From contig JBDKSB010000005.1 of the NCBI GenBank assembly GCA_039683095.1, positions 1 through 64,000 of the forward strand: a stretch of 64,000 bases of DNA, written 5' to 3'. Shown here piece by piece: positions 14,816 through 64,000 of this stretch. The number at the start of each line of letters is the position of its first letter. The stretch's first letter is position 1. A model generated the notes under the pieces. The model was not told the DNA's origin. It saw only the letters and a program-made list of their open reading frames with translations, and did no database searches. The translations under genes and the position numbers were made by a program. This DNA comes from Acidobacteriota bacterium. GTDB taxonomy: Bacteria; Acidobacteriota; Aminicenantia; Aminicenantales; Saccharicenantaceae.

Positions 14816-17800
14816 TTAGAACCCGGGACTGATGCTCAGCTGAAGGTGCCAGCCGCGCACCGGCCGGTCCATGGGATAGACGTAGTTCAGGCCGAGGACG
14901 AGTACGCCGAAGAGATTGGTCCGGACGCCGACGCCGTAGCTCCGCACGGGCTTGCGGTCCCCGCCCGCGAACCAGGGCTTGACCAGCTTGGGATCCTCTC
15001 CGATCACGTTCCCGGCGCTGTCGTAGACGTAGCCGCCCCACCAGTAGTTCGGAGCCGAGGCGTAGGCGATGCCCCAGTCGAAGAAGCCGAAGGCCTCGAG
15101 CGGCCAGGCGCCGTAGTAGCCCTTGCCCAGATGAAAGAGCCCGAGCAGGGGGAAGCGCACCTCGACGTTGGCCACCATCATCCGGCTGCCGTAGAGCCGG
15201 CTGAAATCGAAGGCTTTGGTCGGATCGCTGTTGTAGGTGGACAGCTCGGCGGTGGAGATCGAATCGTAGCCGCGGACGAGGTCCCAGTAACCGATGTAGA
15301 GCGGGTAGAACCGGGTGTCCTCGGAATCCTTGCCGTACCGGCCGTAATGCATGGCCCGGAAGGCCAGGGTGAAGGGCCTGACCGGCATGATATACTTCCG
15401 GAAATCCGCCAGGGCAGTCATGAACGTCACCCCGCCGACGGCCGGCGACAGCTGGACGCCGAGGTTCTGCCCCAGGATCGGGCTGGTCGCGCCGAATATG
15501 CCGGTGTCGTAGAAATAGCTGCCGGTCAGATAGCCGTAGCCCAGGCTCGCCGGCATGTCGTTCGGGTGGGTCTTGCGATAGTCGACGAGGTAGCCGCTCA
15601 GGTCATAGATCCTCTCGTAGACCGAATGCTGGAAATCCTCGAGCCGGCCTCCGGCGCTGAGCTGGAAGCGGCTGACCTGGCTGAGCGGGTAGGAGCCGAA
15701 CACGGAGGCGTCGTAGTTGATCAGCCGGTAGACGTCCTCGACCTCGTGGTAATAGCCGTCCCCTCCCGCGGCCGGGTCGCTGTACATGAAATAATAATAG
15801 GAATAGGGATAGACGATCCGCTGGAGGGCCGAGCCCCAGTTGAGCCGGCTGCGGTTGTTTAGGTAGGCCACGACGCCCGAAGTGTCGACGAGCCGCGTGC
15901 CGGTGAAGGCGGTGGTCACGACCGTGTGGTACCCGAGCATGTCGCTCCAATAGGCGGCCACGCCGCCCGCCCCGTAGGTCCCGTAGCGGTCCACGCCGAT
16001 GGCGATGCTCGGCGGCATGACGTAGTCGAGGCTGAGCTTGGGCTTATAGGGGACGACGGCGAACGCGGTATCCTTGGGCAGGCCGAAGAGCGGGTTCTTG
16101 AGCAGGCCCAGCAGCGAGCCCTCGGGCTCCTTGCGCGGGGCGAGGACGGCCGGGTTGCGCTCGAACTGGGCCAGGAAGGTCTGGCCCTCGAGGACGGCCG
16201 GATCATCGACCGCGTAGACCGTGTAATAGCCCCCCTGGTAGCCGGAGAAGACCAGCCGGCCCGTGTTCAGGGCGACGGAGATGGACGGGCTGAGATCGGT
16301 GATCCCGGAGACGCCGGTGTAGAGGTTGGAGACCTGGACGATCTTGGCCGAGGCGACGTCGATCTTGTAGAGATCGGTCTTGCCGCTCTGGTCCGAGAGG
16401 AAATAGAGCGCCCGGGAATCGGCCGTCCACTGGGGGTTGATATTCTTGCCCGAGGGGAAGGCCAGGAGCTTCTGGACGCGGCCAGACTCGACGTCGAGAA
16501 GGGCCAGCTCGTACCGGCCGACGTCGACCCAATCGAGGTTGCTGGAGAAACGCTCGGTGACGAAGGCGATCGTCTTGCCGTCCGGGGACCAGACTGGCTG
16601 GAGGTCGCCGTAGATGTCCCGGGTCATCTGCTTGAGGATGTTGTCCTGAAGGTCGTAGATGAAGATGTCCGACACGCCCCCGGCCAGCCCGGTGAAGCAG
16701 ACGTAGCGGCCGTCGGGCGACCAGGCCGGGCTGAGGATCTCGGCCAGCTCGTTGAAGCGGATCTCCCGCTCGATCTTGTCCCTCTTCATGTCGATGATGG
16801 TCAGGACCGGGCGGCCGTTGGTCACGCCGCCGAAGACGAACTTGTCGCCCTGGAAGTCCCAGGACCCGGCCGACTTGATGAACTGGATGCTCTCGAAATG
16901 GGGGTCGACGGCGGTCGAGACGATCTTCCTCCGGACCTTGCCGCTGTCGGCGTCGGCCAGGTAGAGATCGACCGAGAACAGGTCCCGGCTGGACAGGAAG
17001 ACGATGGACTTGCCGTCGGGGCTGATGGACGGGGCGATGTTATAGGGGTTGCTCTCGGTGCCTTTGAACAGGGGCTTGCCGAACTTGTCCGGGGCCTGCG
17101 TCTTGTCCCCCAGAGGGTCATAGGCGGCCTGCATGGACTTGTGCCAGTCGTCGGAGAGCGTCTTGATCTTGACCCCGAGGACGCTCTCCAGGATGACCTC
17201 GTAGTCACCCGAGCGCCCGACCGACTTCATCATCTTGCCGATGACCTCGTCGCCCCAGCGGCCGGCGATGTAGGCCCAGACGGCCTGGCCCCAGCGATAG
17301 GGGAAGTACTTGTAGGAGTTGTCGAGCTTCTTGAGCGCGGGCAGGTCCTTGCGGCGGACGGCGTCGCGCATCCACATCGAGGTATTGGGGTCGACCGGGC
17401 CGATGGAAAGGTACTCGGCCATGCCCTCGATGAACCAGAGGGGGATGCGCAGCGAGGCGTCGTTGCCCCGGGCCTGGTCGGAGTGGCCCTGGGCCATGAT
17501 GTCGTACTGAAAGGCGTGGACGAGTTCGTGGCCGATGACGTGATCGGTCTCGGCCAGGGAAGCCCCGTAGGGCAGGACGACGCGCCGCTTGAAGGATTCG
17601 GTGACGCCGCCGGTGCCCTCCCCCAGGAGCTCGGGGATGACCGTGGTCTGCTGGAACTCCGGGCTGCTGGCATAGAGGACGAGCGGCTGGCGGCCCTTGA
17701 GCTCGTGGTTGAACATCCGGGACAGGCGCGCGTACCAGCGCTCGGCCATCAGGCCCGCCATCTTGACCGTCTCCTCGTCCTGGAGGTAGAAGTAGACGTC

Positions 17801-52447: not shown

Positions 52448-52975
52448 ATGAAGCGGAACATCGGCGGATTTGCGGCGGCCGTCCTGCCTTCCCTGATGCT
52501 TGTCCTTCCCGGGAGCCTTTCCGCCAGGGAAAGGCGCGGGGCCGCCATCGTCATCACTTTTAAGGACGGACAGTCCGTCTCCGGAGAATTGAAAGCCGTC
52601 AAGCCGGATTCGCTGCTGCTTTTTGTCGGGAAGGACGAGACCGTGGACCTGGCCGGGATCAGAAGCGTCAGGATCGTCCGGAGATCCAGGGCCCTGCTGG
52701 GAGCAGTCTGCGGTTTTGTTGCCGGCGTGGCGGGAACGGTCATCTATGCCTCGGCCCAAAAGGAAGTCGAAGATCCATGGACAGGCCTTTGGCAAGGCAT
52801 CGGAGTGATCGGGGCGGGGGTGGTGTTCATCGGCTCCGGCACAGGCGTGGGGATCGGAGCAGGCCTGCTGGCGGGCAAGGACAAGACGATCCGACTCGAA
52901 GGGAGATCCGAACCGGAGGTCGCCAGGGCCCTGGCCTATCTGCGCCGCAAAGCCCGCATCCGCGATATCAAGTGA
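52448..52975 (+). CDS. Exported or membrane protein of unknown function (175 residues)
   Basis: ATG at 52448 with GGAGGGGG ahead. A signal peptide or first helix (GGFAAAVLPSLMLVLPGSLSA) is followed by a small beta domain (AAIVITFKDGQSVSGELKAV, DETVDLAGIRSVRIVRRS) that looks like an Sm/Hfq-like or PRC-type fold, then two hydrophobic, glycine-rich segments (LLGAVCGFVAGVAGTVIYAS, GVIGAGVVFIGSGTGVGIGAG). Similar layouts occur in lipoprotein-like 'DUF' proteins of Acidobacteriota. Function unknown. Confidence 0.65.
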   Translation: MKRNIGGFAAAVLPSLMLVLPGSLSARERRGAAIVITFKDGQSVSGELKAVKPDSLLLFVGKDETVDLAGIRSVRIVRRSRALLGAVCGFVAGVAGTVIYASAQKEVEDPWTGLWQGIGVIGAGVVFIGSGTGVGIGAGLLAGKDKTIRLEGRSEPEVARALAYLRRKARIRDIK

Positions 52976-53132: not shown

Positions 53133-53178
53133 AGCGCGCCCGGGGTGACTCGAACACCCGACCTGCTGATTCGTAGTC
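53133..53178 (-). repeat. attL: 46-bp direct repeat, 3' part of tRNA-Arg(ACG)
   Basis: Identical to 63014-63059. On the minus strand it reads from two anticodon-stem bases through loop CTACGAA (anticodon ACG), the 3' anticodon stem, variable loop, T-arm (GGGTG-TTCGAGT-CACCC) and acceptor strand CGGGCGC plus G. The sequence that should give the D-arm and 5' acceptor (53179 onward) is not tRNA-like. Confidence 0.85.
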
Positions 53179-53379
53179 CGCTCTCGTCTCCCCTGTAAAA
53201 CGCTGAATATGAGGGGAAGCCGTATCCCTGAGTGACCCGGAGTGACCCCGAAACGCACGCCAACACGTCGCAAAAGTCGACAGGGCAGAAAGGCCGGGCC
53301 GGAGGGGAAGGCGCCCCTCCGGCCCTTTGGGCTTCTTCATCTCGCAGAAAATCAGCCGCATCACTCGCGACTGGCCTTT
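53179..53379. other. Gene-free left end of the element with 10-bp tandem repeats
   Basis: No gene. GAGTGACCCG/GAGTGACCCC occur back to back at 53230-53249, and the att core next to them contains GGGGTGACTC. They may be arm-type integrase sites. Confidence 0.35.
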
Positions 53380-53742
53380 TCAACGCTGGAGGGCGGCCCG
53401 GATCTTCTCGCGGACCTCGGGCGTGACCTGGTCGATCGGCTGCTCGTGCCCGTCCATGATGACCATGACGTCGCCGCTCGCGCGCCGCTCGACGACGAGG
53501 CCCGGCTCAACCGTGACTGAGTTCTGAAGGAAGATCCCGAGAAGGTCTGCCAGCGGCGCCGCGGCCGCCGTTCCGATCGGCTCGCCCGCCAAGACGTTCC
53601 CAATCGCCTGGTCGATCTTCCGTTTATACGCCTGCTCGTTGACGTAGGCGTCGGGTGAGACGAGCTCGTTGCCTGGGTCGGCCGCGGCGGGCCGCGGGAT
53701 CAAGGGATTGTCCCGGGGATCGGTCAGGTCGATGCCGCTCAC
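53380..53742 (-). CDS. Unknown element protein (120 residues)
   Basis: GTG start at 53742 overlapping the upstream stop (GTGA). No signal peptide, no membrane helix. The sequence begins with a proline-rich low-complexity part (DLTDPRDNPLIPRPAAADPG), then a helix NEQAYKRKIDQAIGNVLAG and a mixed C-terminus (VVERRASGDVMVIMDGHEQPI). Not recognised. It is the last gene of the minus-strand block; a place where phages put tail or baseplate accessory or lysis genes. Confidence 0.6.
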   Translation of the reverse strand: MSGIDLTDPRDNPLIPRPAAADPGNELVSPDAYVNEQAYKRKIDQAIGNVLAGEPIGTAAAAPLADLLGIFLQNSVTVEPGLVVERRASGDVMVIMDGHEQPIDQVTPEVREKIRAALQR

Positions 53743-54461
53743 TTCAGCTCCTCGATCGTCATGCCGCTGACCGTCCGCCGCTGGTCGATCTGATACGTGA
53801 TCGTCAGCGCGGCCCGGATCCCGCCGTTATAGCGCGCCTTGACGTCGACCTTGCCGCCCGTGCCGGCGATCTCGCTGATCGCCTGGGAGAGCTCGGGCAG
53901 CCAGGCCTCGAGGATCTGAGGGTCGAAGCGGAGCTCGCGCAGGGCCGCCTCGTCCAGCCCTTCAAGCCAGATGGCGCCGCCGAGCCCGTCATCGTTCGCA
54001 CGATGGAGCTTGTCCTTGGCATCTTCGAGCTGCGCCCGGACGAGAGGCCAGCCGCCGGCGAAAACCTCCGCCCCGTCCGGGCCGTAGCCGATCCCGGCGA
54101 TCCGGCGCTCCGCCGACTTGACGAATTCCTTGAGGGCTTCGATCCAGCAGAGGGCAGGGGCCTGGAGGAGATAGACGAGCTCGTTCTCCGCCTTCAGGGC
54201 CTCGACGTCCGCCTCGAGCACGGCCCTGGCCTTCTCCCGGACCTGGCGCAGGAGCCCGATGTCGTTCCCTGCCGCGGCCGCGCGAGCCTTGAGGGCATCG
54301 ACCTCGGCCCGAAGCCGGCCGGCCTTTTCCTTTGCCTCCGCGGTCTGGTTCTCCCAGCTCTTCCTCTTCGGGGCGAGCTCGGCCTCGAGGGCAGCCGCCC
54401 TTGCCTTGATGGCCGCCTCCTCTTCGCGGAGAAGCTCGAGCGTCGGCTTATTGCTTTTCAT
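53739..54461 (-). CDS. Coiled-coil element protein (240 residues)
   Basis: ATG at 54461 with GAGG six bases ahead. Residues to about 95 are coiled-coil (LELLREEEAAIKARAAALEAE, AEVDALKARAAAAGNDIG). The remainder mixes helices (ENELVYLLQAPALCWIEAL) and a C-terminal beta part (GKVDVKARYNGGIRAALTIT). Not recognised; possibly a structural or tail-fibre-associated protein. Overlaps the next small gene's 3' end upstream by 14 bp and couples to the downstream gene. Confidence 0.65.
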   Translation of the reverse strand: MKSNKPTLELLREEEAAIKARAAALEAELAPKRKSWENQTAEAKEKAGRLRAEVDALKARAAAAGNDIGLLRQVREKARAVLEADVEALKAENELVYLLQAPALCWIEALKEFVKSAERRIAGIGYGPDGAEVFAGGWPLVRAQLEDAKDKLHRANDDGLGGAIWLEGLDEAALRELRFDPQILEAWLPELSQAISEIAGTGGKVDVKARYNGGIRAALTITYQIDQRRTVSGMTIEELK

Positions 54462-54636
54462 TGCTGACCTCGGGCTCGGCCTTCTCGCCCTTGCGGCGGA
54501 ACGTGCCGTCGGGCAGCCGCTCGATGTCGGCCGTCGTGATACGGTCGATCCCGCGCGCCCTCTTGCTTTCATGCGGCCGGCCGTCGTTCGTCGTGATGAC
54601 ATCGGCCCCCGTCACCGGGTTTTTGTAGCGGATCAT
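54448..54636 (-). CDS. Unknown small element protein (62 residues)
   Basis: ATG at 54636 behind a perfect AGGAGG. Basic and charged (IRYKNPVTGADVITTNDGRP, TFRRKGEKAEPEV), no hydrophobic helix. It overlaps the following gene by 14 bp. Not recognised. Confidence 0.6.
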   Translation of the reverse strand: MIRYKNPVTGADVITTNDGRPHESKRARGIDRITTADIERLPDGTFRRKGEKAEPEVSNEKQ

Positions 54637-54656
54637 AATAACCTCCTGAAAGTGAT

Positions 54657-55157
54657 CTATTCAGACTCGTCGACGTCTGTTATCTTGACCTTTAGGCCCC
54701 CTGTCTCGGGGCCAGCATTGGACTCGTGCTCCGTTTCTGGAAGGAACGCCTCCGTGACCTCGTAGATCAGGCCGCGGCCGGCCAAGTTCATCTCGAGTGC
54801 CCGGATCCGCGCTTCGAACTCGTCCTGTTCCAGGGTCCGAAAACCAAACTCGAGGATCGTCGTGGCGGCCAGTCGGGCATCGGCTAGATCGTCGGATTTC
54901 ATGATGGCGATGAGCCGTTCGACGGCCTTCCCGGACGCGGCCCTGAGCTGGCCCGTGGCCTCCGCGAAGATCTCCCGCCGGCCCGCTTCGAGCCTGGCCT
55001 TGAACGCCGGCAGCTGGGCCCAGCGATAGACCGACGACTTTCCGACGGCTAACTTTTTCGCGGCGTCGACGGCCGTGAGGCCCTGGACAAGGAGCACGAC
55101 GGCGTCGAGCTGCATCTTGGTCAGAGGCTTTTCCGTTTTGCGCTTACTTTTTCCCAC
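54657..55157 (-). CDS. Helix-turn-helix protein resembling phage terminase small subunits
   Basis: The protein has 166 residues and a GTG start at 55157 with GGAG seven bases ahead. The N-terminus LTKMQLDAVVLLVQGLTAVDAAKKLAVGKSSVYRW is an HTH_29/terS-type DNA-binding domain, followed by AFKARLEAGRREIF and a helical stretch with RLAATTILEFGF as in small terminase-like regulators. A large terminase is not nearby, so it could instead be a transcription regulator. Mostly on the same strand and coupled with its neighbours. Confidence 0.6.
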   Translation of the reverse strand: MGKSKRKTEKPLTKMQLDAVVLLVQGLTAVDAAKKLAVGKSSVYRWAQLPAFKARLEAGRREIFAEATGQLRAASGKAVERLIAIMKSDDLADARLAATTILEFGFRTLEQDEFEARIRALEMNLAGRGLIYEVTEAFLPETEHESNAGPETGGLKVKITDVDESE

Positions 55158-55509
55158 GTCTTCGCTCCAGCTCTGCGATCTCCCGACGCAGCCGGTCCCG
55201 CGTCTCTTTGAGGGTTTCTGCCGGCCGCGGCTTCGCCTTCGCCTTCCTGGGCTCTTTGGGAAGGGCGGCCACGCGTTCCCGTAGCCGATAGATGCCCCTC
55301 CGGACGAGTTCCAGCATGTTGGTAGTCAAGGCGTTCGGGTTTGGCCGGGGCTCTTCGAACGCGAGCGGGCCCAGGTCCGGGGCGGACATCCTGGCCAGAA
55401 GCTCCATCTCTTCCTCATCCGGCTCGCTGCCGTCCTGCACGATGAACGCCGAAGGAGAGACGACCCGCTTCTTGCCGGCCAGGGCCGCGAAGAGCTCGCT
55501 TGGATCCAT
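55144..55509 (-). CDS. Unknown element protein (121 residues)
   Basis: ATG at 55509 overlapping the upstream stop (TGATG). Acidic N-half (DGSEPDEEEMELLARM), then a basic coiled-coil C-terminus (ETLKETRDRLRREIAELERRRGKK). Overlaps the HTH gene by 14 bp. Not recognised. Confidence 0.6.
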   Translation of the reverse strand: MDPSELFAALAGKKRVVSPSAFIVQDGSEPDEEEMELLARMSAPDLGPLAFEEPRPNPNALTTNMLELVRRGIYRLRERVAALPKEPRKAKAKPRPAETLKETRDRLRREIAELERRRGKK

Positions 55510-55769
55510 CACGTGGCAGCCTCGCCGATCTCGGCTTCGAGCTCCTGCCGGCGCCGCTCAAGAACTTCGACCTCGGCGGCCAAGTCCTGGCCTTTGTCGC
55601 TCTGAGGTCGGCCCTCCTGGGCCCTCCCAGCCCCATCCTCGGGCCGTCCCGGGCCTTTGGGCGTCTTGACGACGATGATCTTAAGGACGGCTTCCTCGCC
55701 GTTCATCGGGCCCACGCCATAGCGGGCCTCGAGCCTGGCCAGGCGGCGAGCGTAGCGGCTCTTCAGCAT
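55509..55769 (-). CDS. Unknown small element protein (86 residues)
   Basis: ATG at 55769; ribosome site weak (AGGT). Basic start LKSRYARRLARLEARYGVGP, a short strand LKIIVVKTPKG and a C-terminal helix VEVLERRRQELEAEIG. Not recognised; resembles short proteins seen next to phage terminase or tail genes only in its composition. Confidence 0.55.
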   Translation of the reverse strand: MLKSRYARRLARLEARYGVGPMNGEEAVLKIIVVKTPKGPGRPEDGAGRAQEGRPQSDKGQDLAAEVEVLERRRQELEAEIGEAAT

Positions 55770-55827
55770 GTTCCGTCACCTTTCCCGACAGCCTGGCCTT
55801 CGATTCGAAGGTAAATGTCGGCCATCT

Positions 55828-56985
55828 CTACCTCCGCCCTCTGTCGCCCGTGATGCTCATCATCTCCTCGTAGAGGATGTTCCGGGCCTCCCGGACCGTC
55901 CGGCGATCAAGGCTCTGCACGTTGACCGTCTGGTGGATCGTGATCGTCGGCGCGGGCCCGGCAGCTGCCGCTCCGGCAAGCGCCGGGGTCATCATCCCGG
56001 ACGCCAGGCCCATGCCGGAGAGGGCGTCCCGGAAGACGGAGAGGAGCTTCTTCTCCGGGAGGTAATACTCGGTATCGTTCTCCGCGACCGTATGGGCCGG
56101 GAGCAGCGTCTTCTCTTCGAAGACCGCGCCCTCGTCGAACTTGAGGAGCTTCGAGAAAAGCTTGGAGACGACGGCGAAAGCGCCCGCCGCGAGCGGGATG
56201 GCCACGAACCAGGGGAACGACTTGAAGATCCCCGCGATCGCGTGGGCGACAGCTGCCATCTGCGCACTCATGATCTCTTTTATCGTCAACCGGGCGAGGT
56301 CCGCGATCATCCCGTCGACGACATTCCGAAGCGCCTCGCCCATCGACTCCGCGCCCCTAGCTATCGAAATGAAGCCGTCGGCCATGACACTGGCCATCTG
56401 CTCGCCGGTGGCGGTGAAGGACTGCATTTCCGCCCGGGCCTTTTCTGACGCCGCGGCGCTCAGGTCCGCTCCCTTTTGGGTGAATTCGTCGATGATGTCG
56501 AGACCCAAGGAGGCCTGCCCGGCGACTCCGCTCAGGTCCATTTCGATCGGAACCTCTATGATGTCGAGGGAATCGAGCTCAGAGGTCACGCGCTCGAGGT
56601 TGCCCGCGAGATCTAAGGAGCTCGAGCCGAGAGCGTCGAACTTTGCTTTCTCCACGGTAATGACTGAGCCCGCCCCGCTCAGCCCAGCCTTGAGCTCATC
56701 GAGAGCCTGGAAGAGCGCGTCGAAGGCGACGACGACCGAGGAGGCCTTCTCGATATTAGCGGCGCTCATCTGTGCGAAATTGGTCTGCTGGGCCCGGGCC
56801 ATCTCCGCGAAATTCATGAGGAACTCGTTCATCCCGGCCGTCATGTCCGTCTTCGTGCGGGTGCCGTTCTTGACGATCCACTCGGCGATGTCAGCCGTCG
56901 CGCCCTGCATCCAGCTCCAGGCCGATTGCACGGCCCCTTTTAGCGACGGCATGAGGACTATCAAGCCCTCGACCGCTTTCGCCAT
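55828..56985 (-). CDS. Tape-measure protein, C-terminal part (separated from the N-terminal part by an in-frame TGA)
   Basis: The protein has 385 residues from the first ATG (56985) after the TGA; the frame is the same as that of the N-terminal part, and the 19 codons between TGA and this ATG continue the protein sensibly. It has long amphipathic helices (NIEKASSVVVAFDALFQALDEL), a hydrophobic segment (FVAIPLAAGAFAVVSKLFSKLL) and an ITIHQTVNVQSLDRRTVREA C-terminal motif typical of tape-measure ends. It has no ribosome site of its own, so it may not be made unless the TGA is read through. Confidence 0.7.
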   Translation of the reverse strand: MAKAVEGLIVLMPSLKGAVQSAWSWMQGATADIAEWIVKNGTRTKTDMTAGMNEFLMNFAEMARAQQTNFAQMSAANIEKASSVVVAFDALFQALDELKAGLSGAGSVITVEKAKFDALGSSSLDLAGNLERVTSELDSLDIIEVPIEMDLSGVAGQASLGLDIIDEFTQKGADLSAAASEKARAEMQSFTATGEQMASVMADGFISIARGAESMGEALRNVVDGMIADLARLTIKEIMSAQMAAVAHAIAGIFKSFPWFVAIPLAAGAFAVVSKLFSKLLKFDEGAVFEEKTLLPAHTVAENDTEYYLPEKKLLSVFRDALSGMGLASGMMTPALAGAAAAGPAPTITIHQTVNVQSLDRRTVREARNILYEEMMSITGDRGRR

Positions 56986-57042
56986 GATCCTGAAGGCGCC
57001 AACGAAGACTTGGGCCGCGCCGAGGGCCCAATCCTGGAGCTT

Positions 57043-57861
57043 TCACGACGCGGCGAATTCGGCGATCTTGGACCGGAGGACAGCGAGTCCGTCCGTCATC
57101 CCTGAGACGAGGGACCTCGTGGCGGGAATAAGGGCAAGGGCGATATCGTTCCGGATCCCCGCGAAGGCGCCCTTGAGCTCGGCCAGGGAGTCGTTGAACA
57201 TGTCGCAGGCCTTGGCCGAATCCTTGGAGAAGACGAGCCCCAGCCGGGCCGCGGCGGCGGCCTCTTCCTCCAGGCCCTTGCTGCCGAGGTTGAGCAGCGG
57301 GATAAGCTCCATGCCGGAACGGCCGAAGACATCCTGGGCCAGCGCGGTCTTCATGGCCCCGTCCTCCAGCGCGGAGAACCGATCGGCCACGCCGAAGAGC
57401 ACGTCGTTGAGCGGGCGAAGCTTGCCCGTCGAGTCGACGATGTCGACGCCCAAGGACTTGAACATATCGGCCTGGGCCTTCCCGCCGGCAGCCGCGGTCT
57501 GCATATTCGAGGCGAGGCCCCTGAGACCTATGGCCAGGCCATCGATCGAGGCGCCGCTCTTCTCCGCGGCGAGCTTGAACGACGAGAGGATCTCCGTCGC
57601 GATCCCCGTCCGCTGGCTCATGTCATTGATCTCGTCGCCGGCATTCGCGGTCATCTTCACCGCAGCAGCGATCCCCGCAGCTGCAGCGGCACCGACGAGG
57701 GCAAGCTTCTTTCCTATATCGGCGAACTCACGGCCCAGCTTGGCAGCCTGGGTCCCGAGCTCCTTCACGTCCTTCTGGACGGATGAGATGCCCTGATTCC
57801 ATTCCGTCTTGTCCAGGCCGATGTGGCCGAGGATCGAACCAAGATCAAAGCCGCTCGCCAT
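57043..57861 (-). CDS. Phage tail tape-measure protein, N-terminal part (truncated by TGA)
   Basis: The protein has 272 residues. ATG at 57861 with GGAG seven bases ahead. LGSILGHIGLDKTEWNQGISSVQKDVKELG is the standard tape-measure start, followed by a hydrophobic helix (LALVGAAAAAGIAAAVKMTANAGDEINDMSQRTG family motif) and FGRSGMELIPLL. Its TGA stop at 57043-57045 is in frame with the following part. A tape measure sets tail length and passes DNA; the truncated form would likely be non-functional. Confidence 0.75.
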   Translation of the reverse strand: MASGFDLGSILGHIGLDKTEWNQGISSVQKDVKELGTQAAKLGREFADIGKKLALVGAAAAAGIAAAVKMTANAGDEINDMSQRTGIATEILSSFKLAAEKSGASIDGLAIGLRGLASNMQTAAAGGKAQADMFKSLGVDIVDSTGKLRPLNDVLFGVADRFSALEDGAMKTALAQDVFGRSGMELIPLLNLGSKGLEEEAAAAARLGLVFSKDSAKACDMFNDSLAELKGAFAGIRNDIALALIPATRSLVSGMTDGLAVLRSKIAEFAAS

Positions 57862-58180
57862 TGCCTTTCTCCTTCTCGGTGAATTCCCTGATGAGCTCGT
57901 TGATCGTGTCGCCGAGCTTCTTAAGCTTGCGGAGGCGCCCGGGCATCCACCCGCCGCCGATCCAGCCGGCCACGATGCCCTCCATCTTCTCCGGCGTGAG
58001 GCCCGGGTCCTCGTCGACGGCAAAGAGCCACAGATAGCGCGCTATGAGACGGAGGCCCTTCTCTTCCTTGATCGCCCCGATCGCCGAGGGAAGTGCCCGG
58101 CCGCCGTAGACGGACTGCAATCGCTTAAGTGCGTAGGGCGTGATACGCAGATCCCGCGGCCGGTCGAGGTTTATCTTCAT
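57845..58180 (-). CDS. Probable tail assembly chaperone (111 residues)
   Basis: It sits directly ahead of the tape-measure gene and overlaps its start by 17 bp, the usual place of the G/GT-type chaperone. N-terminal NLDRPRDLRITPYALKRLQSVYGG and a helical C-terminus (MPGRLRKLKKLGDTINELIREF) fit the class of small chaperones that link phage tail subunits. The sequence itself is not diagnostic, so the call rests on position and size. Confidence 0.6.
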   Translation of the reverse strand: MKINLDRPRDLRITPYALKRLQSVYGGRALPSAIGAIKEEKGLRLIARYLWLFAVDEDPGLTPEKMEGIVAGWIGGGWMPGRLRKLKKLGDTINELIREFTEKEKGNGERL

Positions 58181-58626
58181 TTGCCGCTCCCTTTGAAATT
58201 CTGGCCCAGCTTCTCGCGGATGTAGTCGACGGCAATCTGCATGAAGTGCCGGCTGTGACCCGCCATCTTCTTTTCGAGAAACTTCGAGCCCGGGCCGGGG
58301 ACGCGGGTACGGGTATAATTCTTGATCGGGTAGCTCCCGTCCTCCCGGTGCCCTTCATGCTGGACGGCCGCATAGGGCGAGTTGTAGCCGAAGGAGACAG
58401 AGATCTTGTCGCCGGAGATCTCGGGCTCCTTGACCAGGCGCGAGGCCCGGAGGTCGCCGTGGAGGTAGGGGGTCTGGGGGATCTCGTCGTCGGAGGCCTT
58501 GAGGACTGCCTGGGCGGCCGTGAAGAGGCCCTGGGCGGCGAGCTTGGTGCCCGCCTGCTCACAGAACTCCCGGAACTTCTTGTCGAAGTCGGAGGTCTCG
58601 AAGTAGAACCCCTTCTTGCTGGCCAT
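58177..58626 (-). CDS. HK97-gp10-like head-tail/minor structural protein
   Basis: The protein has 149 residues from ATG 58626 (GAGG spacing favours it over the adjacent ATG at 58629). FSFGYNSPYAAVQHEGHRED and VPGPGSKFLEKKM are the diagnostic gp10 motifs (YA-x-x-QHEG then K-FLE). This protein joins tail tube to head in HK97-type siphophages. Its 3' end overlaps the chaperone-like gene (ATGA). Confidence 0.75.
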   Translation of the reverse strand: MASKKGFYFETSDFDKKFREFCEQAGTKLAAQGLFTAAQAVLKASDDEIPQTPYLHGDLRASRLVKEPEISGDKISVSFGYNSPYAAVQHEGHREDGSYPIKNYTRTRVPGPGSKFLEKKMAGHSRHFMQIAVDYIREKLGQNFKGSGK

Positions 58627-58711
58627 CATACGCCTCGATTCCCGCCAAGGACAGGGGCCGGCCAGGGCGGGGCTGCTGAAGCGGTATCGAGTGGGCGGGG
58701 ATGCCGGAGCA

Positions 58712-59356
58712 TCATGAGACGTCCTTGATTCGCTGATTGAAGCCCTGGCGTCTGCGCTCGAGGCCTTCGGGGCTGATGCGATCAGGCCCGTCTTGGCGCT
58801 TGCCCTGTTCGATCATCCTGGCCAGCCGCCTGATCTCGGCCCTTTCGTTGACGAGCGGATCCCTGAGCTCGAAGGGCAAGCCCTTCGGGATCGGCAAGAG
58901 CCCGTCTTTATCTGTCCCGTCTTTGTCCGGACATTTTCGGACGGGGGGGGACGCCTCTCCCTCTCCTTCTTCGTTTTTCTTGTCTTCGCCTGAAGAGGGG
59001 GAATGGGGGGGATGATGAAGACGGTAGAGGCGTTTCCTTTCCGCCTCCGCTTCTCGGAGGGATCGCGCTCGGTAGACCTGGTAGTTGATGAGCTCGAAGC
59101 CGCCATCGACCCGGCGAAGCCGCCGGCCTTCGTCATTCGTCGACCTCGATTCCGGATCCGGCGCCTCGAGTCGGACGATCGCAGCCCTGACCACATCAAG
59201 GGAGAGGCGAGCGACCGAGGAGATATAGACGGCCGAAACCGGCGCGATGCCGTCGCTATCACAGGCTGCCAGCAAAACGACCCAGATCTTGAAGGTGTCG
59301 CTGTCCTCGGCCATAATCGAGGACTGCAAGATCCCGCGATCTAGTTTCGTGAACAT
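58712..59356 (-). CDS. Phage replication-type winged-helix protein
   Basis: The protein has 214 residues; the start at 59356 overlaps the upstream stop (TGATG). TKLDRGILQSSIMAEDSDTFKIW, VSAVYISSVARLSLDVVRAAI and PDPESRSTNDEGRRLRRVDGGF match the N-terminal domain of phage replisome organiser/O-like proteins, which bind origin DNA. A linker rich in charged residues and a basic C-terminus follow. No helicase loader partner is seen next to it. Confidence 0.65.
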   Translation of the reverse strand: MFTKLDRGILQSSIMAEDSDTFKIWVVLLAACDSDGIAPVSAVYISSVARLSLDVVRAAIVRLEAPDPESRSTNDEGRRLRRVDGGFELINYQVYRARSLREAEAERKRLYRLHHPPHSPSSGEDKKNEEGEGEASPPVRKCPDKDGTDKDGLLPIPKGLPFELRDPLVNERAEIRRLARMIEQGKRQDGPDRISPEGLERRRQGFNQRIKDVS

Positions 59357-59547
59357 CACCGGCCCGTCTTCGCCAGCTGCGCGTCCAGGCGCCGCTCGAG
59401 CTCACGACCATCGACGCGGACGGTCCGACCGAGATGGACGGCCGGGATCTCGCCGCGGGAGATCATCTTCCGGACGCCGGCGATACTGAGGCCCAGGAGC
59501 TCGGCGCACTCGCGCGTTGAGATCCATCGACGCGCCGGCACGGTCAC
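59356..59547 (-). CDS. MerR/excisionase-type helix-turn-helix protein
   Basis: The protein has 63 residues from GTG at 59547, overlapping the upstream stop (GTGA); ATG at 59568 is an alternative. WISTRECAELLGLSIAGVRKMISRGEIPAVHLGRTVRVDGREL is the helix-turn-helix plus wing of the excisionase family (HTH_17). Probably a DNA-bending regulator of the element's early genes or of excision. Confidence 0.7.
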   Translation of the reverse strand: MTVPARRWISTRECAELLGLSIAGVRKMISRGEIPAVHLGRTVRVDGRELERRLDAQLAKTGR

Positions 59548-59741
59548 TTCTCGACCTCGGGCGGGCACATGCCGAGGGCCTTCAGGATCCTCGTCTTTGC
59601 CGCGGCGACGGCTGGCGTGTCGCGGACCAGGTTGTGCTCGATGCGGCTGATGAGGCCCGGGTCAACCTCGGCAGCTTGGGCCACATCGACCTGGCGGAGA
59701 TCCCTTTGCCGCCGAAGAGCCCTGATGACCTGACCATTCAT
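59544..59741 (-). CDS. Cro/CI-type (XRE) helix-turn-helix regulator
   Basis: The protein has 65 residues. ATG at 59741 with a perfect AGGAGG ahead. IRALRRQRDLRQVDVAQAAEVDPGLISRIEHNL is the HTH_3 motif. It begins the minus-strand operon and is divergent from the 194-residue gene; a palindrome in the shared gap is probably its operator. Confidence 0.8.
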   Translation of the reverse strand: MNGQVIRALRRQRDLRQVDVAQAAEVDPGLISRIEHNLVRDTPAVAAAKTRILKALGMCPPEVEK

Positions 59742-59766
59742 TTGACTTCCTCCTGCTAAATCGTCA

Positions 59767-59776
59767 ACAATATTGT
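59767..59776. promoter_or_regulatory. Palindrome ACAATATTGT, candidate operator of the XRE regulator
   Basis: A perfect 10-bp palindrome lies midway between the divergent starts at 59741 and 59792, with TGAC-type flanks on either side. Position and symmetry suit a Cro/CI-like dimer. Confidence 0.45.
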
Positions 59777-59791
59777 CAGGCAGATTTGGCA

Positions 59792-60376
59792 ATGAGTCAT
59801 CGGCATAATGACCCGAGGAAAGTTCTGACAGCAGAGGCGGGACGAGTTCGCGCGCGCTATCTGAGGGCGAACAAAGACAGGCCCGGTCCTGAACCAGAGT
59901 TCGACAACTTTATGCTTGAGGCCGGCACGGGTCTGGGGCTTGATGTCTCAGGACGTATGGGCCCGAATGGTGAATGGAAAACGAGGTACGAGGTCTGGAA
60001 ACGTGGCGCGGGCTACCGTCGGATGAAGTACCTGGAGGGACTGGGCGGCGACCACATCCCGCACGTCATCGAGGGCCCCTTTGCGGAAATCGGCAACTTC
60101 GTTGTCCGAAACCCGCGTCGCGATGGTGGGCGATCAAGCATCACGCCAGCCTGCCCCTTCATGAAGGCCGTCTACGCCGTCATGGCTGCCCTCGAAAATG
60201 GTCCTGGCGGCCGACCGCCAAAGCCCATGCCTTCCGATCGCGAGCTGATGAGAATCTTCCGTCCGCCCGGGAAAAAGAACTGCACAGCGGCGGAACTGGC
60301 CCGGTACCGGCCCGTCATCAAGAAGCTGGCTAGAGAACTCGCCGCACGATCGCCGGGAACTGACGGAGATCTCTGA
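59792..60376 (+). CDS. Unknown element protein (194 residues)
   Basis: ATG at 59792 chosen over an upstream TTG at 59786; ribosome site weak. Basic, no membrane helix (RKVLTAEAGRVRARYLRANKD, WKRGAGYRRMKYLEGLGGD, CPFMKAVYAVMAALENG). Not recognised. Its divergent position to the XRE gene matches immunity-region or early-regulatory genes in prophages. Confidence 0.65.
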   Translation: MSHRHNDPRKVLTAEAGRVRARYLRANKDRPGPEPEFDNFMLEAGTGLGLDVSGRMGPNGEWKTRYEVWKRGAGYRRMKYLEGLGGDHIPHVIEGPFAEIGNFVVRNPRRDGGRSSITPACPFMKAVYAVMAALENGPGGRPPKPMPSDRELMRIFRPPGKKNCTAAELARYRPVIKKLARELAARSPGTDGDL

Positions 60377-60387
60377 GGTCTGGCCTA

Positions 60388-60567
60388 TTAATGGGCTATC
60401 TCTAGAGCGTCCTTGTCGAAGGCATACCAGGAAGGCTTCTCTGCCGCCAGGACAGGGAACCAAGTGCATTCGAGAGAACCATCATCCTGAATGATACTGG
60501 TAACGGTCATTTTAGGGCCGCCCGATTTGAGTCTCACGACGTCGCCCTTCTTGAACTGTTGATCCAT
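60388..60567 (-). CDS. DUF2158 (YodC-like) small protein
   Basis: The protein has 59 residues. ATG at 60567 with AGGAGG ahead, TAA at 60388-60390. DQQFKKGDVVRLKSGGPKMTV is the DUF2158 signature, and CTWF...FDKDAL ends the domain. Such proteins are small, of unknown role, and frequent in mobile elements. It is transcribed toward the 194-residue gene (convergent). Confidence 0.75.
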   Translation of the reverse strand: MDQQFKKGDVVRLKSGGPKMTVTSIIQDDGSLECTWFPVLAAEKPSWYAFDKDALEIAH

Positions 60568-60626
60568 CTGAACCTCCTATCGGACGAGTAATCCAGCGGT
60601 CTTCCCTTGGCCGGCCCCTGCCGGTG

Positions 60627-60818
60627 TCAAGATCGGCGCCGCTTTTGCTGCTGTTTCATCCGGTCCTCAAGCCAGCGGTCGATCAGGTCCACCCGGAATA
60701 GGACCCGGCGTCTGAGCTTCACGTGCGGGAGTCCTTCCTTCATCAGCCGGTCGACCGTCGCCGAGCTGATCTTCAGGTAGCCCTGTAGATCCTTCTTGTT
60801 CAGGTACTCCCTTTCCAT
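60627..60818 (-). CDS. Excisionase-like helix-turn-helix protein, left-facing
   Basis: The protein has 63 residues from ATG 60818. YLNKKDLQGYLKISSATVDRLMKEGLPHVKLRRRVLFRVDLIDRWL is the AlpA/Xis-type HTH. No strong ribosome site. Divergent from another HTH gene at 60919 across iterated GATACGT repeats; one of the two is probably the directionality factor of the integrase. Confidence 0.7.
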   Translation of the reverse strand: MEREYLNKKDLQGYLKISSATVDRLMKEGLPHVKLRRRVLFRVDLIDRWLEDRMKQQQKRRRS

Positions 60819-60857
60819 TTGCCCGAGGATAGCACGAAGAAGAACAGAAAAAAAGAC

Positions 60858-60901
60858 TTGACACGAATGATACGTTATGATTGATTAGGATACGTAAGGA
60901 T
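60858..60901. promoter_or_regulatory. Divergent control region with GATACGT direct repeats
   Basis: TTGACA at 60858-60863. Two repeats, GATACGTTATGAT at 60869 and GATACGTAAGGAT at 60889, agree at 11 of 13 bases and are exactly 20 bp apart, two helical turns. They lie between two HTH genes and suit cooperative binding by one of them. Confidence 0.5.
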
Positions 60902-60918
60902 GATTACAAGGAGGTACG

Positions 60919-61104
60919 ATGAACGATTACCTAACCGTCAACGAGGCAAGCGAGCTCCTCAGGTGCTCGCGTCTGACCGTCTGCCGCTGGATTAAAGCGA
61001 AGAAGCTCCGCGCGTTTAAGCTCGCTGGCGGGCGCAGCTGGAGGATCCGGCGCGCGGACTTCGAACGATTCACCAGCGGGGCCCCTGCCCGCAAAAATTC
61101 CTAA
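60919..61104 (+). CDS. Excisionase-like helix-turn-helix protein, right-facing
   Basis: The protein has 61 residues; AAGGAGG before the ATG. YLTVNEASELLRCSRLTVCRWIKAKKLRAFKLAGGRSWRIRRADFERF is a standard MerR-like excisionase domain. It starts the plus-strand group ending with the integrase, the usual place of a recombination directionality factor. Confidence 0.8.
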   Translation: MNDYLTVNEASELLRCSRLTVCRWIKAKKLRAFKLAGGRSWRIRRADFERFTSGAPARKNS

Positions 61105-61125
61105 AGTGAAAAGGAGGACGACTGT

Positions 61126-61572
61126 ATGAAAAAGACGAACGGGGGAAAGGTGCAGCTCAAGAAGGGCGCCGCGATGTGGATGGGCGGTGCTATCCGGCTC
61201 GTCCTGAAGCCGGACCTCTGCGCCGACCTGGCGGCGGGAAAGCAGATAACGATCGACTTCGGAACTCCGGGGACGTGTGAATGGAATGAGCTCGACCTTC
61301 AGGTCGAGGCGGGCCCGGAGAACAAGATCAAGGAGCTCTCGCCCTGGTTCGACCTGGACCAATCGCTCCTCGAGGTCAAGAACAGCGTCATCACGGACGG
61401 GCCGGAATATGTTCAGGACTACTTCGCCGTCTACCTTGAGGAGAGCGAGAATCGGAGCATGGGCTTTACGATCAACGGAAAGCAGGCGCGGGCCCTGGCC
61501 GATATGCTGCTCGCCTACTGCCGCGTCTGTGAATCTATCGAGGCGCTCGAGACCACGCCGACGACCGCCTGA
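61126..61572 (+). CDS. Unknown element protein (148 residues)
   Basis: AAAAGGAGG precedes the ATG at 61126. Acidic and mixed alpha/beta (GKVQLKKGAAMWMGGAIRLVL, TIDFGTPGTCEWNELDLQVE, LADMLLAYCRVCESIEALE). No signal peptide or membrane helix. Not recognised. Confidence 0.7.
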   Translation: MKKTNGGKVQLKKGAAMWMGGAIRLVLKPDLCADLAAGKQITIDFGTPGTCEWNELDLQVEAGPENKIKELSPWFDLDQSLLEVKNSVITDGPEYVQDYFAVYLEESENRSMGFTINGKQARALADMLLAYCRVCESIEALETTPTTA

Positions 61573-61628
61573 CCATTCCTCCGGCCCGGGGCGAGGTCCT
61601 GGGCCGGGTGAAAGGCCAGGAGGTCATC

Positions 61629-61859
61629 ATGAGCGAAGATCGACGCCGACCGTATCTATCGGACCGGCGCTGCGGCCGCTGCCTCATCCCGCTCGAAATC
61701 AGGGAACGGCGCGAGGACGGATGGCTGATCGTGACCTACCGCTGCCCGATCTGCGGCTTCAACCAGGCCATCACGTTTTCACCCCAGGAGCTCGAGGAGT
61801 GGGCCCGCCGGCATCCAGGGACCAGGACCGGGGAGATCGCCCCGCAGAAATGCGTCTGA
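61629..61859 (+). CDS. Zinc-ribbon small protein (76 residues)
   Basis: ATG at 61629 with AGGAGG five bases ahead; a GTG at 61608 is less likely. RRCGRCLIP and YRCPICGFN give two CxxC pairs 25-odd residues apart, a zinc ribbon. Possibly DNA- or protein-binding. Its TGA stop lies in the loop of a hairpin just before the integrase gene. Confidence 0.65.
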   Translation: MSEDRRRPYLSDRRCGRCLIPLEIRERREDGWLIVTYRCPICGFNQAITFSPQELEEWARRHPGTRTGEIAPQKCV

Positions 61860-61868
61860 CGCATTTTT
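61848..61868 (+). terminator. Small hairpin with T-run before the integrase gene
   Basis: AAATGCG-TCTGA-CGCATTT (61848-61866) is a 7-bp stem followed by two further T. The loop carries the stop codon of the zinc-ribbon gene. It could lower read-through into the integrase gene. Confidence 0.4.
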
Positions 61869-61901
61869 CGGGCCATCGTATAGCCAACCGGGGAGGAGAT
61901 C

Positions 61902-62999
61902 ATGAAGTCCAAGCCTGAGCGGAACCTGAGGCTCGTCGACGGGAAGTGGTACTTCGACTTCACATTCTCCGGGAAGCGGCGGCGCGGCTTCGCCGGCTAC
62001 ACGAAGGACCAGGCCCGTAATACCATCGTGAAGCTCAGGGCCGAGCTGCTCGACGTCGCCCGCGGATTCAAGAAGCCGGCGGCCGAGGACATCCTCTTCG
62101 AGGATTTCGCAGACAAGTTCCTGGAGAGCTATTCGAAGATCGAGAAGAGATCCTGGAAGTCCGACGAGCTGTCGATCGGGAACCTCAAGCGCTTCTTCAA
62201 GGGGAAGACGCTGAGCTCGATCACGGCCGAGGACGTCGAGCACTACCGCGCGGCCCGCAAGGTCGAGGCCCGCAAAAACTCGACGCTCGGCAAGCCGATC
62301 TCGCCGGCGACGGCCAACCGGGAGCTCGCCTGTCTCAAGTGCCTCTTCAACAGGGCCGTCGAGTGGGGCCGGATCGAGACGAGCCCCGCGGCCAGGGTGA
62401 AGCAGCTGAAGGAGCCGCCGGCCCGGGAGACGATCCTGACCGCCGACCAGGCCCGCCAGCTCCTCGAGGTCGCGGCGCCGGAGTACCGCCCCGTCTTCAT
62501 AGTCGCCCTCGGGACCGGCATGCGCCGCGGCGAGATCCTGTCGCTCAAGTGGACGGACCTGGACCTTGTCCGCGGGATCATCACCGTGACGAATTCGAAG
62601 TCCGGGAAGAGCCGGAAGATCCCGATGAGCGGTGCCGTCGGCGCGGCCCTGGGCGGTGTGCCTCACCGCGGAGAGTACGTCTTCTGGAACCCGGAGACCC
62701 GGACCAGGCTCAAGGATATAAAGAAGCCCTGGGCGGCCGCGTGCACGGTGGCGAAGATCTCGGGCGTCCGCTTCCACGACTGCCGACACACGGCCTTGAC
62801 TTGGATGCTCCAGAGCGGCGCGGACATCGTCTCCGTCTCCAAGATCGCCGGCCATGCCTCGATCGTCATGACGCAAAAGTACTGCCACGCCTCCCCCGAA
62901 ATGCAGCGCCTGGCCGTCAACAGCGTGGGCGAGATCCTGGAACCAACACGACAGAAAGTCGACACCCCCCGGGACGCCTCGGCGCACGTATCCTCATAA
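61902..62999 (+). CDS. Tyrosine recombinase (phage-type integrase)
   Basis: The protein has 365 residues; GGGGAGGAG before the ATG. An N-terminal arm-binding-type beta part (RLVDGKWYFDFTFSGKRRRGF) and a core-binding helical domain lead to the catalytic domain: Arg in GTGMRRGEILSLKW, HxxR in FHDCRHTALTWML, His in IAGHASI and the nucleophile Tyr in QKYCHAS. It inserts the element at the tRNA-Arg att core, which lies 15 bp past its stop. Confidence 0.92.
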   Translation: MKSKPERNLRLVDGKWYFDFTFSGKRRRGFAGYTKDQARNTIVKLRAELLDVARGFKKPAAEDILFEDFADKFLESYSKIEKRSWKSDELSIGNLKRFFKGKTLSSITAEDVEHYRAARKVEARKNSTLGKPISPATANRELACLKCLFNRAVEWGRIETSPAARVKQLKEPPARETILTADQARQLLEVAAPEYRPVFIVALGTGMRRGEILSLKWTDLDLVRGIITVTNSKSGKSRKIPMSGAVGAALGGVPHRGEYVFWNPETRTRLKDIKKPWAAACTVAKISGVRFHDCRHTALTWMLQSGADIVSVSKIAGHASIVMTQKYCHASPEMQRLAVNSVGEILEPTRQKVDTPRDASAHVSS

Positions 63000-63013
63000 G
63001 TGGTTGAAAAAGA

Positions 63014-63059
63014 AGCGCGCCCGGGGTGACTCGAACACCCGACCTGCTGATTCGTAGTC
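63014..63059 (-). repeat. attR: second copy of the 46-bp tRNA-Arg(ACG) 3' repeat
   Basis: Identical to 53133-53178. Bases to the right (63060 onward) that should continue the tRNA toward its 5' end are not tRNA-like and instead lead into a second integrase gene. So this copy is probably both attR of this element and attL of a neighbouring one. Confidence 0.85.
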
Positions 63060-63074
63060 GAAGGGAATCCCGGG

Positions 63075-64000
63075 CTAATTGTGTGATAACTCAACGGATG
63101 AGCGCTCCTCGTTTTTCCCCTGTGCCACATTTGTGCCAGTCGCCGGGCTAGCGGCGCGTCCGGGATCCTCGAAAAGCGCAGCCAGCGCGTTGACGGCCTT
63201 CCGCCTGTTCTCGTCGTTCGGGTTGATGTATCGCGTCGTCGTCCGGATGTCCCGGTGGCCGAGGATCTGCTGGACCGTCGTGAGCGGGATCCCGGCCGTG
63301 GCCATGTACGTGCCGGCGCAGTGCCGGAGGTCATGGAAGTGGAGCTCCGGGAGGCCCGCTTTCGCCCGCGCGGCCTCGAAGGCCTTCTTGCAGTCGACCA
63401 GGTGCCCCCTCCCCCATCGGCCCGCGAAGACGTAATCGCCCTTCCGCTCGATCGAGGCGAGGACGCTGAGCACCACGGAATTCATGGGCACCCGGAGGAA
63501 CTTCACGCTCTTCGTCCGTGCGAAGGAGATCACCCCATCCTCGAAGTTCACCTGGGACCAGCGGAGGCCCAGGATCTCACCGCGACGAAGGCCCGTGTTC
63601 AGCGCGATAAGAACGATCTTCCTGAGCGTATCGTCCGCGGCCTCGAGGAGCGCGGCAACCTGGTCCCTGTTCAGAATGTAGTCGCGCGACTGCTCGGCGT
63701 AGAACGAGACAGCCTTGACCGGGTTCTCTCCCCGGAGGCGGTGCTGCTTCAGGGCCACGTTGAACATGTTCTTGAGGACCGCGAGCTCACGATTGACGCT
63801 CGAGCCCTTCCTCTCCCGGGTCCTGGGCTTACCGTCGGCGCCGGCCTTGCAGGCAATCCGCTGCTTCATCCGCTTCTGTTTGTAGGCCTCGACCATCTCG
63901 GGCGTGATCTTCGAGAGCGGGATCTCGCCGAAGTGGCTGGCCAGGTGCTTGATGTAGCCCCGGACCGAGCGGATGGATCTGGTGCCGGCCCTAATCTGTT
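63075..64000 (-). CDS. Tyrosine recombinase of a second element (5' end outside window)
   Basis: The frame is open to the window edge; about 308 residues are visible and the N-terminus is missing. Catalytic residues: Arg in NTGLRRGEILGLRW, HxxR in LHFHDLRHCAGTYM, His in ILGHRDIRTT and Tyr in TRYINPN. Core-binding-domain sequence (HLASHFGEIPLSKITPEMVEAY) continues upstream. It differs clearly from the integrase at 61902. Placed next to the shared att repeat with its 3' end facing it. Confidence 0.9.
   Translation of the reverse strand, partial: QIRAGTRSIRSVRGYIKHLASHFGEIPLSKITPEMVEAYKQKRMKQRIACKAGADGKPRTRERKGSSVNRELAVLKNMFNVALKQHRLRGENPVKAVSFYAEQSRDYILNRDQVAALLEAADDTLRKIVLIALNTGLRRGEILGLRWSQVNFEDGVISFARTKSVKFLRVPMNSVVLSVLASIERKGDYVFAGRWGRGHLVDCKKAFEAARAKAGLPELHFHDLRHCAGTYMATAGIPLTTVQQILGHRDIRTTTRYINPNDENRRKAVNALAALFEDPGRAASPATGTNVAQGKNEERSSVELSHN

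Follow-up and report, generated by a model that had tools for sequence, protein, structure and literature searches.

At least three mobile elements in tandem, candidate phage satellites, at one tRNA-Arg(ACG) gene of an Aminicenantia bacterium

We report that at least three mobile elements almost certainly lie in tandem in a single tRNA-Arg(ACG) gene of an uncultured Acidobacteriota bacterium (genome G000; 3.29 Mb in 13 contigs). The best overall explanation of the locus, and one that we regard as very probable, is that three or more elements, most likely phage satellites, are arrayed in tandem. The stretch of DNA analysed, here called the window, is 64 kb long and corresponds to C5:1-64000 of a contig that ends at 84777; coordinates given without a contig name refer to it. 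The three units, E1, E2 and E3, measure 9.8 kb, 14.6 kb and at least 9.9 kb, and their order from the chromosome would be att1, E1, att2, E2, att3, E3 and the intact tRNA. An initial annotation of the window had proposed tandem integration at one tRNA-Arg(ACG) gene, with at least two elements in a row. The tandem is supported by the att copies, the integrases and an empty site in a close relative, and a third repeat copy at C5:77678-77723 raises the count to at least three.

Three tRNA fragments and one intact gene

The window contains a perfect 46-bp repeat in two copies, at 53133-53178 and 63014-63059. A chance origin can be ruled out, since only about 1e-19 exact 46-mer pairs are expected in 14 kb. 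As first annotated, both copies derive from the 3' half of a minus-strand tRNA-Arg(ACG). Each takes in the anticodon stem-loop, breaking off within the stem, and reaches 1-2 nt past the discriminator. It also held true that the D-arm and the 5' acceptor are missing beside both: there is no tRNA 5' half at either copy, and no complete tRNA in the 64-kb window.

A genome-wide search allowing up to two mismatches found four copies, these two and others at C5:77678-77723 and C10:83215-83260. The third matches at 44 of 46 bp, only the last two bases differing; it has no tRNA 5' half and is followed by unrelated sequence and by its own minus-strand integrase gene (C5:77733-78974). The fourth sits within an intact tRNA-Arg(ACG), C10:83183-83259, the only intact one found in the genome. 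The intact tRNA that had been predicted beyond the right edge of the window is thus present, but on another contig, and its link to the array across a gap is one that we infer below. A further repeat copy joined to a tRNA 5' half had also been anticipated: the copy that follows on C5 is unjoined, and it is the one on C10 that forms part of a whole tRNA.

The fragments att1, att2 and att3 are all 3' halves in the same orientation, and each ends in or just past the anticodon loop; a crossover in this loop is the class A site of the Islander database (PMC4383910). In all copies a T-rich tract immediately follows the tRNA 3' end (tctctttttcccc, ttctttttcaacc, tctctttattcccc and ttcctcttttctcc), so each element seems to restore both the tRNA end and a T-rich tail. 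Elsewhere in the genome, an isolated and slightly diverged tRNA-Arg(ACG) 3' fragment lies 1 kb from a tRNA-Gln gene (C6:25945-25995; L017:7945-7995). No integrase was seen beside it, and it is a relic of another integration or of a rearrangement.

The elements and their integrases

The features of the array that fall within the window are as follows.

53133-53178, minus strand: att1, the displaced original tRNA-Arg(ACG) 3' half, at the boundary between chromosome (low side) and E1; 46-bp perfect repeat
53179-63013: element E1, 9835 bp, bounded by att1 and att2, with its own integrase
53380-53742, minus strand: E1 hypothetical protein, 120 aa; open reading frame, no PHROG hit
53739-54461, minus strand: E1 hypothetical protein, 240 aa; open reading frame, no PHROG or PADLOC hit
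54657-55157, minus strand: E1 terminase-small-subunit-like protein (phrog_3218, E 5e-8)
55828-57861, minus strand: E1 tape-measure-like gene with one in-frame stop at 57043-57045 (N part phrog_8462, E 1e-39)
57845-58180, minus strand: E1 phage tail protein (phrog_2115, E 8e-6)
58177-58629, minus strand: E1 minor head/neck (gp10-like) protein (phrog_556, E 4e-13; phrog_5, E 4e-7)
58712-59359, minus strand: E1 215-aa protein; open reading frame, no PHROG hit
59356-59568, minus strand: E1 excisionase/MerR-like HTH protein (phrog_66, E 2e-8)
59544-59792, minus strand: E1 XRE-type repressor-like HTH protein (phrog_3, E 8e-5)
60919-61104, plus strand: E1 excisionase-like HTH protein (phrog_10045, E 2e-9; phrog_66, E 3e-9)
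61126-61572, plus strand: E1 148-aa protein in common with E2 (cluster 15; 70% DNA identity to C5:64265-64723)
61608-61859, plus strand: E1 83-aa protein in common with E3 (cluster 16; 79% DNA identity to C5:78959-79158)
61902-62999, plus strand: E1 tyrosine integrase (phrog_1, E 2e-74)
63014-63059, minus strand: att2, tRNA-Arg(ACG) 3' half at the E1/E2 boundary; 46-bp perfect repeat
63060-64000: part of element E2 in the window; E2 reaches C5:77677 (14618 bp), where the third att copy follows at C5:77678-77723
63075-64000 (to C5:64226), minus strand: E2 tyrosine integrase (phrog_1, E 2e-69)

Every unit has its own integrase gene with an adjoining att (C5:61902-62999, 63075-64226 and 77733-78974). 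The two that flank att2 converge on it: the E1 gene ends 14 bp before att2, and the 3' end of the E2 gene lies 15 bp after it. A second, unrelated integrase had been described as starting 15 bp past the right copy. An integrase is indeed there, but the gene ends rather than starts at that point. Nor are the two proteins unrelated; they share 33-34% identity and one PHROG family, which makes them distant relatives.

The 215-aa protein of E1 appears, by eye, to resemble phage replication-initiation proteins. The tape-measure frame comprises 678 codons that are open but for the one internal stop, which divides it into two ORFs, and its C part is 37% identical to the tape measure of a prophage resident on contig C12. 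E2 encodes an integrase, an AAA_25-type Rep, an excisionase-like HTH protein, a TerL, an HK97-type protease and a 670-aa tape-measure homologue. E3 has an integrase, an AAA_25-type Rep, an HTH protein and a TerL, and would span C5:77724-84777, the short contig-end repeat described below and C10:86093-83261 (at least 9887 bp). C10 extends 2.8 kb downstream of the tRNA before it ends, a stretch with a 250-aa ORF and a gene for the terminase large subunit. A conserved protein encoded between Rep and TerL gave an all-helical predicted model (mean pLDDT 70); this candidate small terminase had no significant structural match in the PDB. PADLOC detected no defence systems among ten element proteins, the only related signal being weak DnaG-like stretches in the primase of a further element, E4.

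An empty site in a relative and the probable join between contigs

In G002, the closest relative and a member of the same genus, the left-flank gene, an intact tRNA-Arg(ACG) (C8:224528-224604) and an alcohol-dehydrogenase-like (ADH) gene are contiguous within 2.2 kb. The left-flank gene of the window (52448-52972) has 73% amino acid identity to G002:C8:223611-224138, and the ADH-like gene preceding the C10 tRNA is 88% identical to G002:C8:224806-225807. In DNA alignments the left flank of the window and the C10 tRNA region fall on opposite sides of the empty site (76% and 83%), with the chromosomal side of att1 collinear with it. The ADH-like gene is likewise retained beside tRNA-Arg(ACG) in G003, G006, G007, G011 and G012. 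The empty site that the initial annotation had suggested looking for is therefore present, at G002:C8:223611-225807. This synteny implies that everything from C5:53133 to C10:83260 was inserted in a single tRNA gene, and it led us to reject the idea that the intact tRNA on C10 is unrelated to the site.

The contig ends bear on the same point. Exactly 127 terminal bases are common to the end of C5 and the start of C12, and another exact 127 to the end of C10 and the start of C11, implying that an assembly graph with k = 127 left one short two-copy repeat unresolved. An intact tRNA-Leu(CAA) lies on C12 at 6692-6778; its 3' part recurs at C11:4730-4792 as a 63-bp copy (97%), next to a tyrosine integrase. 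Because they hold this matching att pair, C12 and C11 belong together; they contain E4, a fourth related element, in tRNA-Leu(CAA) (C12:1-6686 plus C11:1-4792; L141 and L114), which has a 671-aa DnaG-type primase and an exact repeat in common with E3. With C12-C11 eliminated, the G002 synteny and the tRNA-Arg att pair argue that C5 joins C10. From the 127-bp ends, the att pairing and the synteny, this probable join would run across the gap from C5:84777 to C10:86093, and the side on which the fragments lie relative to the intact tRNA would follow from it.

It could be argued that the assembly should instead lead from C5 into C11, and that the intact tRNA on C10 stems from a different event. 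The identical terminal 127-mers of C5 and C12, and likewise of C10 and C11, do leave the graph alone indecisive. However, C12 and C11 hold the tRNA-Leu pair, and C5 and C10 a tRNA-Arg pair that is collinear with one contiguous region of G002, so that we consider a misjoin extremely improbable. It is also very unlikely that the block is one composite element, inserted in a single integration and containing internal tRNA fragments. The units do have small genes in common, the 148-aa gene of E1 and E2 (70% DNA identity) and the 83-aa gene of E1 and E3 (79%). Against this, every unit brings a separate integrase (26-34% identity between units) and an adjoining tRNA 3' fragment of its own; E2 and E3 each have a TerL, the two being 54% identical; and in relatives such elements stand singly, with one integrase and one TerL each.

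Successive insertion accounts for the tandem array in a simple way. Each element would use its own tyrosine integrase to insert at the anticodon loop. The gene would stay intact because the incoming element supplies a tRNA 3' half, and the earlier 3' half would remain as a fragment. Since the tRNA would be regenerated each time, the site would stay open and elements could accumulate. If every insertion took place in the regenerated tRNA, which is the simplest order, E1 would be the oldest. The in-frame stop in its tape-measure gene fits an older element, though it is no proof, and indicates that E1 at least may be decaying.

Phage satellites or decayed prophages

On balance, we favour the view that E1, E2 and E3 are phage satellites, with an integrase, HTH regulators, Rep and terminase, and in some cases a capsid protease and tape measure. 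Like satellites, E2 and E3 have their own integrase, regulator and replication genes (in E1 the Rep was recognized by eye only) and an incomplete virion gene set. PHROGs and HK97-type Pfam models, which very divergent versions could escape, detected no portal or capsid gene in any of the three. The elements thus have neither the portal and capsid of a complete temperate phage nor the major capsid protein of a capsid-forming PICI.

The only HK97-type portal and capsid in G000 occur at one site each, both within C12:226-230 kb. They belong to a resident prophage at about C12:215-243 kb that encodes a TerL-like protein, portal, protease, capsid and tape measure (its TerL, tail and boundaries were assigned by eye). 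The E2 protease is 58% identical to that of the prophage, and the E2 tape measure 33% identical over 654 aa. These similarities make the C12 prophage a candidate for the type of helper involved. Judged by gene similarity, the elements may depend on phages of this kind and would be packaged with their help.

The main alternative is that the elements are decayed full prophages, which we think unlikely. The stop in the E1 tape-measure gene is compatible with decay, as is the fact that E3 has little besides TerL, Rep and integrase, and tandem arrays frequently include decayed elements (PMC5704250). The operons are, however, compact, with overlapping ORFs. Moreover, similar sets without portal or capsid recur across families: G013, G036, G053 and G054 have compact elements that encode the conserved helical protein together with an integrase and a TerL, and small HTH genes, Rep or a tape measure accompany these in several of them. 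Independent decay should leave dissimilar remainders, and the recurrence of similar sets therefore counts against it. No HK97-type portal or capsid was found genome-wide in these four genomes or in G040.

A 16.4-kb element in a tRNA-Arg(CCG) gene of G009 (C4; L124:887-17336), with a 48-bp 3' copy, encodes a capsid protein and a TerL of the array's family. It is a capsid-bearing relative from the same genus.

Comparison with known islands and satellites

Tandem accretion at tRNA and tmRNA genes is established (PMC3146451, PMC5704250). In Islander, with its 3919 islands, 125 tandems consist of two or more islands and only 4 of three or more (PMC4383910); the G000 array is thus rare but of a known kind. 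With tandem tDNA islands it shares an intact, regenerated tRNA gene at one end, one fragment and one integrase per island, crossover in the anticodon loop and an empty site in a relative. Given the probable C5-C10 join, its fragments lie on the correct side, and they have the correct orientation, as in the Islander and Dehalococcoides tandem islands. The Dehalococcoides ssrA islands (PMC3146451) differ in having a serine recombinase, using the T-loop region and carrying reductive dehalogenase genes, whereas the array carries phage packaging genes. In the accretion of ICEs and IMEs (PMC5704250), a regenerated site is likewise used again and again by integrases of equal specificity that are only distant relatives, but the PHROG and Pfam hits here include phage genes and no relaxase or conjugation gene.

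PICIs and cfPICIs, which are described in a paper that also names the tycheposons (PMC11389934), resemble E1-E3 in having an integrase, HTH regulators, Rep, phage packaging genes and an incomplete virion set. cfPICIs produce their own capsids (PMC11389934). In contrast, E2 and E3 have a large terminase without a capsid gene, E1 and E2 have a tape measure, and the host phylum is another. The elements cannot be counted as cfPICIs because they contain no capsid gene. Tycheposons are small tRNA-integrating elements of marine bacteria, some of them proposed as satellites. To these E1-E3 can be likened, by description only, as small tRNA-integrating elements. Thus the array is of a known kind, and the element family is apparently undescribed.

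Relatives and opposite polarity

Among 94 genomes from the order, 13 encode TerLs of the E2/E3 family, frequently at tRNA-Arg genes. A contig scan with a tighter TerL alignment returned three Candidatus Aminicenantes contigs, and a viral contig scan with TerL gave seven matches, mostly short contigs. Three of the elements in G013, G036, G053 and G054 sit at tRNA-Arg genes. In G036 the site is a tRNA-Arg(TCG) with a 46-bp 3' copy; a third copy, of 33 bp, lies 1.2 kb further on and represents another tandem or a remnant. The G013 site, also a tRNA-Arg(TCG), has a 42-bp 5' copy (L121:1497-1571 and 15162-15203, 13.6 kb between copies).

The G054 element occupies the same ADH-tRNA-Arg(ACG) locus as the array, on the 5' side. 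The ADH gene is flanked by a 43-bp 5' fragment, with the intact tRNA at the opposite end of the element (L117:3751-3793 and 15899-15975). This element therefore restores the tRNA 5' half, whereas E1 restores the 3' half. The G054 integrase is nonetheless closest to that of E1 (57% identity; grouping support 94/96, slightly under the tool's own threshold). Because the anticodon stem-loop is nearly palindromic, related integrases can probably use either tRNA half. Islands of this 5' type are on record but infrequent, at 159 of the 3919 in Islander (PMC4383910); PMC6563490 refers for them to Zhao and Williams 2002, among others. By eye, the G054 element seemed to provide a promoter upstream of the tRNA that it restores, which a consensus scan did not support.

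We tentatively propose, as a possibility somewhat short of probable, an undescribed satellite family of Aminicenantes. Its members would favour tRNA-Arg anticodon loops, have their own TerL, sometimes with protease and tape measure, and borrow capsid and portal; E1 and the G054 element would take opposite polarities at tRNA-Arg(ACG) by way of the near-palindromic stem-loop. The locus provides a triple accretion at one tRNA gene, verified by an empty site, in an uncultured group. It points to a recurrent family of compact elements with a terminase and no capsid gene, found beside a candidate helper prophage, and the E1/G054 pair makes testable how an integrase acting at the anticodon stem-loop picks the tRNA half that is restored.

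Elsewhere in the genus, the tRNA-Arg(ACG) site shows further signs of use: a 1-kb interval between copies in G004 (C64:167680-168747; L111), and in G003 a copy of the tRNA that is decayed but nearly full-length (C2:141160-141201; L110). G000 itself has TerL loci at C1:127-137 kb (L112) and C12:308-316 kb (L113), where large serine recombinase genes overlap tRNA-Arg(TCT) and tRNA-Arg(CCG); both also hold tyrosine-integrase fragments and head proteases. Finally, an integrase immediately adjoins the 5' side of a tRNA-Arg(TCG) on C7 (C7:89122-89490; L019), and a 3' fragment of this tRNA lies at C1:444122-444185 (L018), suggesting that the gene may bear elements on both sides.
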